From Candidatus Scybalomonas excrementigallinarum (GTDB lineage Bacteria; Bacillota; Clostridia; Lachnospirales; Lachnospiraceae), in contig DVIZ01000059.1 of assembly GCA_018710905.1 (NCBI GenBank), positions 1 through 64,000 of the forward strand: DNA of 64,000 bases. The letters are read 5' to 3'. The position numbers and the translations under genes are program-made. This document shows positions 5,321 through 41,437 of this stretch, one piece after another; position 1 is the stretch's first letter; every line of letters starts with the position of its first letter. The notes under the pieces are model-generated. The model searched no databases. It was not told the DNA's origin and saw only the letters and a program-made list of their open reading frames with translations.

Positions 5321-5474
5321 AGAAATTATTCAAAAAATTCAAGTTTATTTTTTAATGCATAAGTTAATTTTCTTGTTTCTGAAAATGAATATTGACTTTA
5401 TATGGTAAAAAAACATATCGTATTGCCAATTTTTTCGCAAAATTTTCTACAATAAACAAAGTATGCTATAACAT

Positions 5475-5520
5475 AAAAAAGTCTTCGGAACTAAGGTTTT
5501 CCTAATTCCAAAGACTTTTT
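5475..5520. terminator. Bidirectional terminator between ferredoxin and importer operon
   Basis: AAAAAAGTCTT and AAGACTTTTT flank an inner stem CTAAGG/CCTAA. A- and T-runs on both sides allow termination in either direction. It would end the minus-strand ferredoxin transcript. Confidence 0.8.
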
Positions 5521-5535
5521 AACTATTTTATAATA

Positions 5536-5727
5536 TTAATCTTCCTCAATATCAATCGCAGAAACTGGACATTCATCTCTTGCTTCTATGGCTTGGCTCT
5601 CTGAACCATTTGGCACTTCGCTTCCGATTGCTCTTGCCACTCCATCATCTGTCATCTCAAATACTTCTGGCCCGATACTTGCGCACATTCCACAACCGAT
5701 ACAATTGTCATTTACATTTGCTTTCAT
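5536..5727 (-). CDS. Small ferredoxin with one 4Fe-4S cluster
   Basis: Cytoplasmic electron carrier of 63 residues. Cluster ligands are CIGCGMC (Cys9, 12, 15 from my start) and Cys53 in DECPVSAID. The two further cysteines that form a disulfide or second cluster in related single-cluster and two-cluster ferredoxins are absent: the positions read ASIGPEVF and EARDECP. I chose the ATG at 5727 because GGAGG is one base from the upstream ATG at 5733 but correctly spaced for this one. It stands alone between terminators. Redox partner not shown by context. Confidence 0.9.
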   Translation of the reverse strand: MKANVNDNCIGCGMCASIGPEVFEMTDDGVARAIGSEVPNGSESQAIEARDECPVSAIDIEED

Positions 5728-36450: not shown

Positions 36451-38571
36451 TTACTTTCTTAAATCATTATAACTTTGTAATAATGGATTGATCTCTTCTT
36501 GATCCATACGATTTAAAAGTTCTGTTCGTTCATTTCGATATTGAATTGGCTTAATACGATTTCTCTTAAATGCCGTATCCATATCCACTTCATATAGATC
36601 CAGTCGATCTTTTATTTTCTCAAAGAAACGTTTCCCTTTTTCATTATTGAGCATAATAAAACTCATACCCTTATTGTCATCTTTTTCCCCTAGCCATTCT
36701 TTCACACTTAAAAAATCTCCAACCGTAATATCCCCTGCTCGGTAGTCTTTTACGAACTGACAGTTAGTACAACTTGGACGTGCCAAATAAGAATTATTAT
36801 AAGCGCGTATATAGTTATTCCTTCTTCCAATGAAAACACGTTCTTGTCCGTCATCGGTCTGAACACACACTTTATAATCCATGAATCCCCAACCATCTCG
36901 TTTATCTTTGCAAACAAAGTTTACAACCGGAGATTTTAAAGCCGTACTTAAATGCTTCATATATTTATCAAACACTTTTGGAGAGGCTGCGGAATGACAG
37001 ACTATTTCTTGAATAATTAAATTCTCATAATCTTCTCCTAGGTAGGATCGAAGTCCTGCACATTCACATGGAAGTCCACTATATAATACTTTCTTTCCAC
37101 TTGTTACAAGGCGCTTCACTTGTGGGAAAATTCCCTCCATATCGCTTTTTGCATACTTGGCTCCATAGAACTTTTCTGCTTCTTCCATTGTATCAGCAAT
37201 ATCAGAAATTACACGCATTTTTTTATCGTATCGTACTCCAACAACGGCTCCATTTTCCTTCTCGATCATCTCTTTACAAAGTTCTGGAAAAATTCCGCCA
37301 GAAGTACTCTTCATTCTGACATCCATATTTTTATTTTTTCCTGCATAAATAACTGGATAGGATTCTTCTTTGATTTGATTGTTATCTTTTAAGCGAATAC
37401 AAACCGCTTCACATTTTCCACAATTGGTACATTTTCTGCTGTCAACACGAGGATAACGGAAGCCTTCTTTATCCACTACCATCTCAATACAATGCTCAGG
37501 ACAAATTTCTTGGCAGGCATAACACCCATAGCACTCTCCTCGTTTAATTGGCACTGGGCACTCAACCATCACTTCATTTTTCGTAATTCCAAGTGTTTCT
37601 TCTAAATCTTTTAATGACTGCACACGAAGTGCCACCATTCTGCGATTTAATACCCCTTTTTTCTCATGAACCGAAAATTTCTTTTCCACAGGCTCTCCTG
37701 TCCAATCCTCTTGGATATGGTAAGAGAACTTCATATCTTTTATAAAATTTCTGACTCTCTTTTTCTCTTTATCCGTCTCTAAATACACAAATGGCTTTTC
37801 ATAAAGAGTTGCCACGAGAACCCCTATCATAGAATCCGTTATGATTCGCTCTGCCTGTGAGGCAACGGCTAAATAATAAGTGACATCATTTCTTTCTTTT
37901 CCAATCACTTTTAATTGCAAATCGTGTTTTTTCGCACTCTTATTAGCAAAACTCTCCACATCGTTATCACTTCTTTGTACATCCACAAATAAGTAAGGTT
38001 GTTCTTTTGGTATTTTATCTTTAATCTCTTCGATATCGCTTTGCTTAATCCATAAAAGAGGATCGTTTACAATCGGAACTTCTTTTCCAAATGTATTGGC
38101 TCCTTCTCTTTGTACCGTTAGCACCTCAAATCCACTAAAATCTTCTTTTGCTTGCTCTCCATTTAGATTCCAGCCATAGGCGATTTTTTTTGCATTTTTC
38201 TCTGCAAATTTTAAAAGATATGCCTCATTTTCCATTCCATATGCATTATATTCACGATCGAGAACAGAAATGTATGCATCCATCCCAAAGTGCTCGTCCA
38301 TCAATTCCTTTATCGTTTCATCATTTCCCAATAGATTCACATGAGTGTTAATAAAAGAAGATGGTTGCTGAATTTTATGTGTTACTTCTGATTTTTTTCG
38401 AAAAATTCCTTTCTTTTCCACTGTTTCATCAGCATTACTTCCGTTCCATGGATGATAATGGATCATATATGGTGCCGTACCATACGCGTCTAGAGTTTTA
38501 TGAATTGCCCATGTTTGCAGATCTGATTCTAAAGTTCTGTCCGCATGGTTCGTTATAATTCCGATCTTCAT
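36451..38571 (-). CDS. Fusion of pyruvyltransferase-like domain, two 4Fe-4S clusters and FrhB-type domain
   Basis: A 706-residue protein. Residues 1-300 resemble polysaccharide pyruvyl transferase folds (IGIITNHADRTLE, ITDSMIGVLVATLYEKPFV). Residues about 340-395 hold two 4Fe-4S motifs (CYGCYACQEICP and CTNCGKCEAVC). The remainder resembles the F420 hydrogenase/dehydrogenase beta subunit (STSGGIFPEL, SGLPCECAGLRSYLG, and CTNCQFVKDYRAGDITVGD). Such proteins occur in surface polysaccharide loci of gut bacteria. Here it sits alone with yhaM, and no glycan genes are nearby. Reaction unknown; redox chemistry with pyruvyl transfer is possible. AGGAGG precedes the start. Confidence 0.8.
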   Translation of the reverse strand: MKIGIITNHADRTLESDLQTWAIHKTLDAYGTAPYMIHYHPWNGSNADETVEKKGIFRKKSEVTHKIQQPSSFINTHVNLLGNDETIKELMDEHFGMDAYISVLDREYNAYGMENEAYLLKFAEKNAKKIAYGWNLNGEQAKEDFSGFEVLTVQREGANTFGKEVPIVNDPLLWIKQSDIEEIKDKIPKEQPYLFVDVQRSDNDVESFANKSAKKHDLQLKVIGKERNDVTYYLAVASQAERIITDSMIGVLVATLYEKPFVYLETDKEKKRVRNFIKDMKFSYHIQEDWTGEPVEKKFSVHEKKGVLNRRMVALRVQSLKDLEETLGITKNEVMVECPVPIKRGECYGCYACQEICPEHCIEMVVDKEGFRYPRVDSRKCTNCGKCEAVCIRLKDNNQIKEESYPVIYAGKNKNMDVRMKSTSGGIFPELCKEMIEKENGAVVGVRYDKKMRVISDIADTMEEAEKFYGAKYAKSDMEGIFPQVKRLVTSGKKVLYSGLPCECAGLRSYLGEDYENLIIQEIVCHSAASPKVFDKYMKHLSTALKSPVVNFVCKDKRDGWGFMDYKVCVQTDDGQERVFIGRRNNYIRAYNNSYLARPSCTNCQFVKDYRAGDITVGDFLSVKEWLGEKDDNKGMSFIMLNNEKGKRFFEKIKDRLDLYEVDMDTAFKRNRIKPIQYRNERTELLNRMDQEEINPLLQSYNDLRK

Positions 38572-39058
38572 CCTTTTTCCTCCTGTTCTTTATTAAACTT
38601 CATATTATCACAGATCAAATAAGGATTCAACCTTATACATTCAAGACTCGCTCGCGAGTCTTGGCGCGGGATTCGGGTCAGCTTTAGCTAACATAATACA
38701 GCTCCGAATCCCTGCTCATCCTCGCGGAGCGTATATCAGATTGGGGATTGACACCCGCCTCTGATACTGATTTGCTGTTCGCCACCTATAGAGGCGGGAG
38801 TCATCCCACATCTGATATATGGCTATTTTTCCTCTTTTCCTCTCCCATACTGCCATTCGCTTGTTAGGTTATTTTCCTCTATCCTCTTGCATAAAGTGAA
38901 TTTGCCACTTATAATTACATGGAACGATACAAAATATCAAATAATAATGATAGAGAACGTGAACAATCCTCAAATATCAAATGTAGAAAAACTTCCTTTT
39001 TCTATTCGATACTTGACTCATTACTTTCACGCAAATAAAACAGACAAGGGTGTATAAA
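38572..39058. other. Divergent intergenic region with three stacked inverted repeats
   Basis: No gene seen. The unusual, GC-richer block 38643-38820 holds three hairpins (described separately). The part beside mutS2 is AT-rich and should contain its promoter. Since neighbouring genes point away from it, the hairpins are not ordinary terminators. Confidence 0.6.
38643..38820. repeat. Triple hairpin block
   Basis: Hairpin 1: AAGACTCGC/GCGAGTCTT (38643-38662). Hairpin 2: GGGATTCGG/CCGAATCCC (about 38669-38712). Hairpin 3: ATATCAGAT (near 38732) pairs with ATCTGATAT (near 38812), and inside it GGGGAT, GAC and CCCGCCTC pair with GAGGCGGG, GTC and ATCCC. Hairpin 3 has about 28 paired bases. The block may be a MITE/REP-like element or a structured RNA. 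Confidence 0.65.
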
Positions 39059-41437
39059 ATGAACGAAAAAGCATTACGAATTTTAGAATATAATAAAATT
39101 ATCGATCGTCTTGTGGAATGTGCTGGTTCTTCTATGGGAAAACAACTTTGTAAGACTTTAATGCCTTCCACCGATCGGATGGAAATTACAACAAAACAAC
39201 AAGAAACAGCAGATGCTTTAAGTCGCCTTTATAAGCATGGTAGCCTTTCTTTTTCTGGCCTTGTTGATATTACTCCATCTTTAAAACGACTCATCGTAGG
39301 CGCATCTTTAGGTGCAGGAGAACTTCTTGAAATCGCCAAACTACTTTCTATTGCACAAACAGCAAAACAATATTCTCATACTTCTGATGATATGAATGAC
39401 AACGATAGCTTGACTTTTCTATTCGAAGACTTAGCTCCACTTACTCCATTGATGTTAGAAATCAAACGCTGTATCCTCGCTGAAGATGAAATCAGTGACG
39501 ATGCTTCCCCAACACTTCGTGACATTCGCCGTCAGATAAAACAGACAAACATCAGGCTTCACAATCAACTAACATCCATTGTAAGCTCCAATAACAATAA
39601 AAATATGTTACAGGATAACATTATTACAATGAGAAATGGTCGTTACTGTATTCCTGTAAAACAAGAATATCGCGGAAGTTTCCCAGGAATGATTCACGAT
39701 CAATCCCAAACAGGTTCTACCTTATTCGTAGAGCCAATGGCTGTTGTGAACTTAAATAACGAATTAAAAGAATTGGCAGGAAAAGAGCAGACAGAAATCG
39801 AACGCATTTTAGCTGGTCTTAGCGAACAAGTAGCTTTTGAACGAGAAGAAATCGAAAATAACCTTCGCCTTTTAACACAACTTGATTTTATTTTTGCAAG
39901 AGCAAAACTGGCGAAATCTTATAACGGAACAGAACCAGTCTTTAATGATGAAAAGAGAATCAACATTAAACAAGGTCGCCATCCTCTCCTTGATAGCCAT
40001 AAAGTCGTACCGATCAATCTCTATCTTGGAAAAGATTTCTCCATGCTTATCGTAACCGGACCAAATACGGGTGGTAAAACCGTATCTTTAAAAACAGTAG
40101 GGCTTTTTACTTTAATGGGGCAAGCAGGGCTTCATATTCCTGCTCTTAGCAATTCGGAATTAGCTGTTTTTGATCAAGTGTATGCGGATATTGGAGATGA
40201 GCAAAGTATTGAACAAAATTTAAGTACCTTCTCTTCTCATATGACAAATATTATTTCTATCTTAAATGATACAACAGAAAACTCTCTCGTATTATTAGAT
40301 GAGCTTTGTGGTGGTACGGATCCAATGGAAGGTGCTGCTCTTGCCATCGCTATTTTAAGCCAATTGCACGGAAAACAAGTGACAACAATGGCAACCACTC
40401 ACTACAGTGAATTAAAATCCTTTGCCCTTTCCACAGCTGGTATCGAAAATGCTTGTTGTGAATTTGATCTTGCCACATTAAGTCCAACGTATCGCTTATT
40501 AATCGGCGTACCAGGAAAAAGTAATGCTTTTGCCATTAGCCAAAAATTAGGACTTGATCCATTTGTAATTGAAGATGCAAAATCACAAATTGATGCATCT
40601 GCCCGCGATTTTGAAACGATGATCGCTGAGTTAGAAACAAGAAAAATTGCGGTTGAAAAAGAGCAAGAAGAAATTTATAAAAAGACTGCAGAAGTGGAAG
40701 AACTTCGTCGTTCTTTACAGCAAAAAGATGCTGAAATCAAACAAAAACGTCAAGAAATTTTAACAAATGCCCGTCAACAAGCACGAGATATTTTAACCGA
40801 TGCGAAAGAAACTGCCGATGAAGCGATCCGAAAATATAACGGTTGGAGCAAACATACTTCTCAAAATAATACAAAGAAAATGGAAGCAGAACGAAGCAAG
40901 CTCCGTGGCAAAATGGGCGAATTAGACAAACAATTAGCTTATAAATCTCAAGCAAAAACGAAGAAACGCCATAAGGCAGAAGATTTCAAAATCGGTGATA
41001 GCGTCTTTGTTACAACCTTAAACTTAAAAGGAACTGTCACTTCTCTTCCAAATGCCAAAGGTGATCTCTATGTTCAAATGGGAATTTTAAAATCCGTTGT
41101 CAACATTAAAAACTTAGAGATTTTAGAAGAAGAAAAACCAAAACAAAAACAACAGCAATCCTCTGGTTATAAAGCCAACTTTATGAAATCAGCAACGATT
41201 TCACCAGAAATCAACTTACTTGGAAAAACAGTGGATGAAGCTATCAACGAATTGGATAAATATTTAGATGACGCTTATTTATCCAAATTAACACAAGTAA
41301 CGATTATCCATGGAAAAGGAACCGGCGCTTTACGAAGTGCTGTACAAGCTTATTTAAGAAAACAAAAGCATATTAAATCATTCCGAAGCGGAGTCTATGG
41401 AGAAGGTGAAGCTGGTGTTACTATCGTAGAATTTTAA
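39059..41437 (+). CDS. mutS2: Endonuclease MutS2
   Basis: ATPase with a C-terminal Smr nuclease domain, implicated in suppressing recombination and in rescuing collided ribosomes. From the ATG at 39059 (AGGGTG upstream) it has about 792 residues, normal for the family. Walker A is GPNTGGKTVSLK near 333-341, Walker B LLDELCGGTDP near 415, followed by a long coiled coil (510-640), a KOW-like segment and the Smr domain (about 710-792; INLLGKTVDEA, IIHGKGTGALR). An alternative GTG lies three codons upstream. Confidence 0.95.
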   Translation: MNEKALRILEYNKIIDRLVECAGSSMGKQLCKTLMPSTDRMEITTKQQETADALSRLYKHGSLSFSGLVDITPSLKRLIVGASLGAGELLEIAKLLSIAQTAKQYSHTSDDMNDNDSLTFLFEDLAPLTPLMLEIKRCILAEDEISDDASPTLRDIRRQIKQTNIRLHNQLTSIVSSNNNKNMLQDNIITMRNGRYCIPVKQEYRGSFPGMIHDQSQTGSTLFVEPMAVVNLNNELKELAGKEQTEIERILAGLSEQVAFEREEIENNLRLLTQLDFIFARAKLAKSYNGTEPVFNDEKRINIKQGRHPLLDSHKVVPINLYLGKDFSMLIVTGPNTGGKTVSLKTVGLFTLMGQAGLHIPALSNSELAVFDQVYADIGDEQSIEQNLSTFSSHMTNIISILNDTTENSLVLLDELCGGTDPMEGAALAIAILSQLHGKQVTTMATTHYSELKSFALSTAGIENACCEFDLATLSPTYRLLIGVPGKSNAFAISQKLGLDPFVIEDAKSQIDASARDFETMIAELETRKIAVEKEQEEIYKKTAEVEELRRSLQQKDAEIKQKRQEILTNARQQARDILTDAKETADEAIRKYNGWSKHTSQNNTKKMEAERSKLRGKMGELDKQLAYKSQAKTKKRHKAEDFKIGDSVFVTTLNLKGTVTSLPNAKGDLYVQMGILKSVVNIKNLEILEEEKPKQKQQQSSGYKANFMKSATISPEINLLGKTVDEAINELDKYLDDAYLSKLTQVTIIHGKGTGALRSAVQAYLRKQKHIKSFRSGVYGEGEAGVTIVEF

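Follow-up and report, generated by a model that had tools for sequence, protein, structure and literature searches.

A gene-free, horizontally mobile palindromic element in the gap between an FrhB-type gene and mutS2 of a Lachnospiraceae genome

Intergenic repeats of Firmicutes such as BOX and bcr1 are modular, structured and mobile without a gene of their own. REP elements are dispersed extragenic palindromes, thought to be moved in trans by a Y1 enzyme, RAYT (PMC8266576). Insertion sequences of the IS200/IS605 type, including IS608, insert into one strand, on the 3' side of a specific short target, and carry hairpins near their ends (PMC5934647); no target duplication accompanies their insertion (PMC7290912). 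The target of IS608 is chosen by pairing with a guide contained in the element, and IS608 has been retargeted by changing this guide (PMC5934647). The palindrome-associated transposable elements (PATEs) of Haloquadratum are short and gene-free, have palindromes close to their ends and a targeting sequence of 4-5 nt, show neither terminal inverted repeats nor target duplication, and have shorter derivatives that may move too (PMC3119063).

The window is the whole stretch of 64,000 nucleotides that was analysed, from a contig of Candidatus Scybalomonas excrementigallinarum. Its gap at 38572-39058 is flanked by an FrhB/4Fe-4S gene on the minus strand and mutS2 on the plus strand, both of which were recognised, so that the divergent gap between an FrhB-fusion gene and mutS2 given in a preliminary description of this DNA is correct. 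No intrinsic terminator was found in 38560-39070, in line with the earlier remark that no transcript ends in the gap. The three stacked inverted repeats reported there are present at 38642-38663, 38664-38717 and 38732-38819. The hairpins do lie in the span of 38643-38820 that was first proposed, but the element proper extends from 38640 to 38814 and the last five bases of stem 3 are taken as host target; the right boundary was shifted 5 nt inward on the evidence of empty sites of sister copies. The higher GC content of the gap was likewise borne out, being 54-55% in the 100-base windows covering 38650-38799 as against 27-43% in element-free windows. The plus strand of the element is a convention, and the top strand in the IS200/IS605 sense would be the minus strand. 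The features are listed below.

38601-38635, no strand assigned: host segment of 35 nt next to the insertion, kept in the two same-genus genomes (G001, G002), which lack the element
38640-38814, plus strand: gene-free mobile element of 175 bp, TTCAAG...CATCTG, delimited by the common ends of sister copies
38642-38663, plus strand: hairpin 1 (CAAGACTCGCTCGCGAGTCTTG), 10 pairs
38664-38717, plus strand: hairpin 2 with an inner stem, from pairing over 28 copies
38720-38731, plus strand: conserved linker CCTCGCGGAGCG, which by its complementarity could pair with the apex of hairpin 1, as an alternative or as a pseudoknot
38732-38736, plus strand: guide-like pentanucleotide TATAT, complement of the target ATATA, from the guide-target match across copies
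38737-38814, plus strand: hairpin 3 domain within the element, with left, middle and right arms and an inner hairpin
38737-38741, plus strand: left arm of domain 3, CAGAT
38761-38766, plus strand: middle arm of domain 3, CTGATA
about 38779-38800, plus strand: inner hairpin of domain 3, which covaries
38810-38814, plus strand: right arm of domain 3, ATCTG
38815-38819, plus strand: probable host target ATATA adjoining the right end, from empty sites of sister copies

No open reading frame of at least 60 aa overlaps the 175-bp element. The target at the window locus is assigned from sister copies, because the flanks of the relatives are too diverged for direct comparison. The conserved segment at 38601-38635 could belong to the upstream control region of the FrhB-type gene; a sigma-70-like site was not called in it. 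Domain 3 also exists in forms that have no middle arm (loci L102, L103 and L126), and at L076 (2349-2576) its module from the middle arm to the right arm is tandemly duplicated. The copy at L049 (2621-2852) carries, between hairpin 2 and the linker, a 52-bp insertion with an inverted repeat of its own.

The preliminary description had suggested a search for further copies in the same genome, which gave the window copy alone. A covariance model of the left half, however, detected it in 119 of the 397 genomes sampled from the family, the element's own included, and 19 of the 119 held ten copies or more; as at most 10 candidates were scored per genome in these surveys, the copy numbers are lower bounds. 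When the same model was applied to an order-level sample, 44 of 392 genomes matched, 43 of them in the same family. A search of genome contigs with one 19-nt piece returned 65 stretches, mostly from Mediterraneibacter and other Lachnospiraceae-type assemblies. The alignment to the element extends further in 64 of these; the remaining stretch, L094 from Myxococcota, had no further match. Full-length copies share the left end TTCAAG and, in the window's branch and with few exceptions, the right end CTGATATA, and their flanks are unrelated to each other. The copies are intergenic (two of 107 rows, both partial, were flagged inside an open reading frame of at least 80 aa), and full copies occur in all four arrangements of the neighboring genes (17, 11, 8 and 8). 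Thirteen loci that were re-fetched at greater length are excluded from the later counts.

Near-identical copies occupy unrelated sites in G429 and, as left halves, in G397 and G165, and point to recent activity. A form with an internal deletion is found at three different loci (L090, L043 and L092) and therefore may itself have moved. Plasmids gave no match to the element, phages gave one weak match (MT836069, 75% over half of the element), and an exact match to either end pattern was not found in viral contigs. Among the partial copies listed, none had a gene enclosed by the element ends, as an autonomous copy would. In at least one draft genome the element breaks contigs. The literature on palindromic, MITE and dispersed repeats of Lachnospiraceae and on RAYTs of Clostridia was searched, and nothing on this element family was found; the claim goes no wider than that search. 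An odd intergenic gap thus becomes a member of a large mobile family that is not in Rfam.

Six exact pairs of occupied and empty sites (L089/L258, L096/L259, L060/L266, L046/L263, L166/L152 and L222/L343) demonstrate that the terminal pentanucleotide pre-exists in the host. It reads ATATA, except for ACATA in L263 and ATAAA in L343. The element proper therefore ends at CTG, position 38814 in the window. There is no target duplication at any of the six sites. A pre-existing target is demonstrated in this way for the TATAT and TTTAT classes only, and the empty site of the TTTAT class (L222/L343) is a paralog within G429. These two loci contain a repeat of about 200 nt ending in GACACCCGAATCCTATGAA, which has about ten matches in G429; one copy of it is the landing site of an element. 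The pair L091/L262, with a deletion at its junction, is not among the six. Of the 38 joined flanks that were made, those of G380 and the last four were left out of the search. For the copies of G429, G397 and G165, no junction was spanned in G060, G010, G456 and four more species, which are too distant.

The boundary was examined statistically in 83 copies, after exclusion of those with no recognised end or with a flank shorter than 60 nt; three of the 83 were left out of the boundary test itself. In the remaining 80 copies, matches between the flanks at the true boundary show a small excess at 1-2 nt (2 nt in 8 copies compared to 3.75 expected, p 0.006), and those of 3-6 nt are not significant. 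The excess is attributed to base composition. Immediately before the left end, 51 of the 83 copies have an A. A MITE with terminal inverted repeats is ruled out, as there are no such repeats and no duplication at the empty sites. Read on the minus strand, the junction is TATAT^[CAGATG...CTTGAA], which is the insertion geometry described for IS200/IS605, 3' of a short target (PMC5934647).

The element has crossed genera. The two sampled genomes of the same genus, G001 and G002 (75% complete), lack it in the orthologous gap. Its identity is 91-93% with full Mediterraneibacter copies and 88% with the best copy of G069, whereas the adjacent mutS2 aligns to the Mediterraneibacter and G069 genomes only in pieces, at 66-69% (for Mediterraneibacter, 68% over 565 and 66% over 228 of 2379 bases). 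The disparity between 91-93% for the element and 66-69% for mutS2 implies horizontal spread. Of the explanations offered at the outset, a mobile palindromic element is the one upheld by multi-copy relatives with common ends, by empty sites and by horizontal spread. The element is thus a real, horizontally mobile, gene-free palindromic element. Most likely the copy in the window is a neutral passenger, for which no host function need be assumed.

The window copy is best explained, with a probability of roughly 0.65, as a small gene-free mobile element that behaves as a non-autonomous, PATE-like element of the IS200/IS605 type. The element would fold as single-stranded DNA, and an HUH (Y1) transposase supplied in trans would bind the hairpins and cut both ends. 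An internal guide would base-pair with the target pentanucleotide and so choose the insertion site; in the window, the insertion landed between the FrhB-type gene and mutS2.

Of six features of PATEs that were tested, the element shows five. At 175 bp it is too short for a transposase gene, its ends TTCAAG and CATCTG are not mutual inverted repeats, hairpins 1 and 3 reach the element ends, and the 5' end of the top strand adjoins a targeting sequence that is TATAT, TTTAT or TTTAA by class. The short gene-free unit with near-terminal palindromes, the lack of terminal inverted repeats and of target duplication, the targeting sequence of 4-5 nt and the possible movement of shorter derivatives are common to both (PMC3119063). 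Unlike PATEs, the element is bacterial, has three conserved hairpins and a linker complementary to hairpin 1, and has a target complementary to an internal segment, and its tie to resident IS605 elements is only suggestive. Like IS200/IS605 and IS608, it inserts on one strand, 3' of a specific short target, and has hairpins near its ends, and its guide-like segment resembles the IS608 guide that pairs with the target (PMC5934647); the absence of target duplication is common to IS200/IS605 and the element (PMC7290912). Unlike IS608, it has neither tnpA nor tnpB, and its guide-like segment is a plain 5-nt complement that is not at the 5' foot of a subterminal hairpin. The likeness to REP elements lies in the dispersed extragenic palindromes and the presumed Y1 enzyme acting in trans (PMC8266576). 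The differences are a much larger unit, the lack of GTAG and the lack of a regular RAYT beside the copies. With BOX and bcr1, the element also shares a modular, structured, intergenic nature and mobility without a gene.

The unusual part of the element is the complementarity between guide and target and its diversification. Five bases separate the linker from the left arm of domain 3, and these are the complement of the target pentanucleotide; in the window they lie at 38732-38736, about 80 nt inside the element end. The match is perfect in 88 of 111 extractions, which include several chance hits scored as misses, compared to a shuffle mean of 27 and a maximum of 44, although the shuffle overstates independence because the copies are related. 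The 88 matches comprise the classes TTTAT/ATAAA (35), TATAT/ATATA (29), TTTAA/TTAAA (23) and one other. Guide and target differ together between branches, and two classes coexist in one genome in G069 and likewise in G029.

In the diverged A-tract branch, 32 of 40 copies were analysed; five copies of G006 without a third domain and loci L378, L395 and L396, which have another form, were left out. Four of the 32 could not be parsed. The left arm starts with TTTTT in 26 of the 28 parsed copies, with AAAAA opposite in 22; sixteen of the arm pairs are perfect and five have one mismatch. A terminator-like hairpin lies directly past the right end in 18 of the 28 copies, as against 5 of 28 left-flank controls. 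Such a preference is found in the A-tract branch only and is not general: among 83 copies from the window-like branches, right flanks did not exceed left flanks in structure (p 0.42). No exact empty site of the A-tract class was found with 10 of the 11 flanks made (the last was left out of the search); the relatives share the A-tract and the terminator but not the left flank, and locus L404 may be a remnant. In G721, the left flanks of L373 and L374 show copies next to apparent relics of older ones at one and the same terminator.

It is tentatively proposed that an internal DNA guide sets the site by plain complementarity throughout a widespread gene-free family of at least four classes (TATAT/ATATA, TTTAT/ATAAA, TTTAA/TTAAA and TTTTT/AAAAA), the last at transcription terminators, and that the enzyme may differ from the classical Y1 TnpA. 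If the coupling of guide and target is causal, the family offers a set of natural examples in which single-strand transposition has been retargeted.

The same complementarity would arise if the guide did not choose the target at all and template switching at replication perfected the hairpin after insertion, rewriting the internal arm to match the A/T-rich flank (quasi-palindrome correction). The mostly perfect arm pairs of the A-tract copies fit such a process. So do the G721 copies, in which the stem beside the T-tract varies (ATTGA, ATATC, CTTGA, ATTT) and the other arm follows, a variation that would equally result from template-switch correction. However, the targets pre-exist at the empty sites, and nearly all copies within a branch have one guide and one target class (the 35, 29 and 23 copies above), whereas free rewriting should yield many guides. 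Correction instead of targeting is therefore considered unlikely.

A non-autonomous element of the IS200/IS605 type should depend on an enzyme made elsewhere, and the family makes it testable which enzyme moves gene-free palindromic elements. The Y1_Tnp domain (PF01797) was found in 15 of the 17 genomes of a first set, with 12 matches in the element's own genome, and in 20 of the 30 genomes of a second set (18 carriers and 12 genomes without a model match). It was not found in the copy-rich genomes G069 and G013 of the first set or in the copy-rich carriers G429, G366, G389 and G456 of the second. These six assemblies are 98, 86, 94, 81, 97 and 94% complete, respectively, but their lack of Y1_Tnp is weakened as evidence because they are drafts, from which multi-copy IS genes are easily lost. 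Two carriers, G380 and G252, are single contigs; the first has Y1 frames of IS200 length only and the second only longer ones of RAYT length. Thus no mobilising enzyme is common to all carriers, neither length class of Y1 is universal, and the genome and locus scans do not support a Y1 transposase as an obligatory partner. The IS605-type elements in these genomes start after TTTAAC. A model of the inner hairpin of domain 3, built from only four segments, scored at least 8 bits at 3 of 17 IS ends and at none of 1700 shuffles, and this resemblance of the IS605 end hairpins is a suggestive link.

The longer Y1 frames, of about 210-310 aa and present in several carrier genomes, raise the question whether the element is of the REP type and is moved by a RAYT (TnpA_REP). 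This is improbable. Neither GTAG nor CTAC occurs in 38640-38814, the unit is far larger than a REP, and the single-contig carrier G380 has no long Y1 frame. Among the loci with a long Y1 frame that were scanned, the element was found only at L174 of the copy-rich genome G012, about 410 bp from the gene. The same locus contains, at 5443-5630, tandem 38-bp repeats with a weak resemblance to hairpin 1.

The folding of the element is strong on both strands. The RNA fold of 38630-38840 has an energy of -83.4 kcal/mol on the plus strand and -89.9 kcal/mol on the minus strand (z of -6.9 and -7.1), and none of 200 shuffles was as low on either strand. Over 28 copies, 95.4% of the cells of hairpins 1 and 2 are paired, and both sides have changed in 14 of 29 pairs, compared to a shuffle mean of 5.7. 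The values are 93.9% and 4 of 10 pairs for hairpin 1, 97.0% and 9 of 13 for the main stem of hairpin 2, and 94.6% and 1 of 6 for its inner stem. The pairing of the linker with the apex of hairpin 1 (91.8% of cells, 3 of 10 pairs changed on both sides) is weaker evidence because both sides are near-palindromic; at L117 the linker and hairpin 1 are altered together. A covariance analysis in relatives had been proposed as a check, and compensatory changes proved to be abundant: the helices of the element are maintained by compensatory change. Counts of G-U over A-C lean to the plus strand and so away from the presumed top strand (31 compared to 12 cells, with the linker helix left out), which is too weak for a strand assignment. 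No Rfam family matched in the window at the gathering score, and the best E value in 38560-39070 was 0.43, to an unrelated family.

The strong fold, the covariation, the alternative pairings and the slight G-U excess would also be expected of a structured RNA, either a small RNA or a cis-regulatory leader, that was kept for a function in the host and copied incidentally. This explanation is highly improbable, as the element is missing from the locus in both same-genus genomes sampled, its full copies occur in all four gene arrangements, and copies with exact ends are found at unrelated loci with a patchy distribution and without a match in Rfam. As a further property of the mobile element, a structured RNA is possible. 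Locus L117 also has a match to the Clostridiales-1 RNA (RF01699) at 201-368 on the minus strand, with 150.7 bits.

Group II introns are characterized by a GUGYG start, an AY end and domain V, and their exon-binding sites can be likened to the internal pairing of the element with its flank. A group IIC-intron-like or other retroelement targeting terminator hairpins would account for the hairpins past the right end in the A-tract branch, but is barely credible because the window copy has no GUGYG start, AY end or domain V and the right flanks in the window-like branches are not preferentially structured.

Another dispersed repeat, AAGCGGACATTCGCAATCCGCTTCGCTACTTGCTCATGAACC, was noticed at L226, L320 and L344 and at other loci of G429, G458, G060 and G456, with about two dozen matches in G429 among the matches listed.
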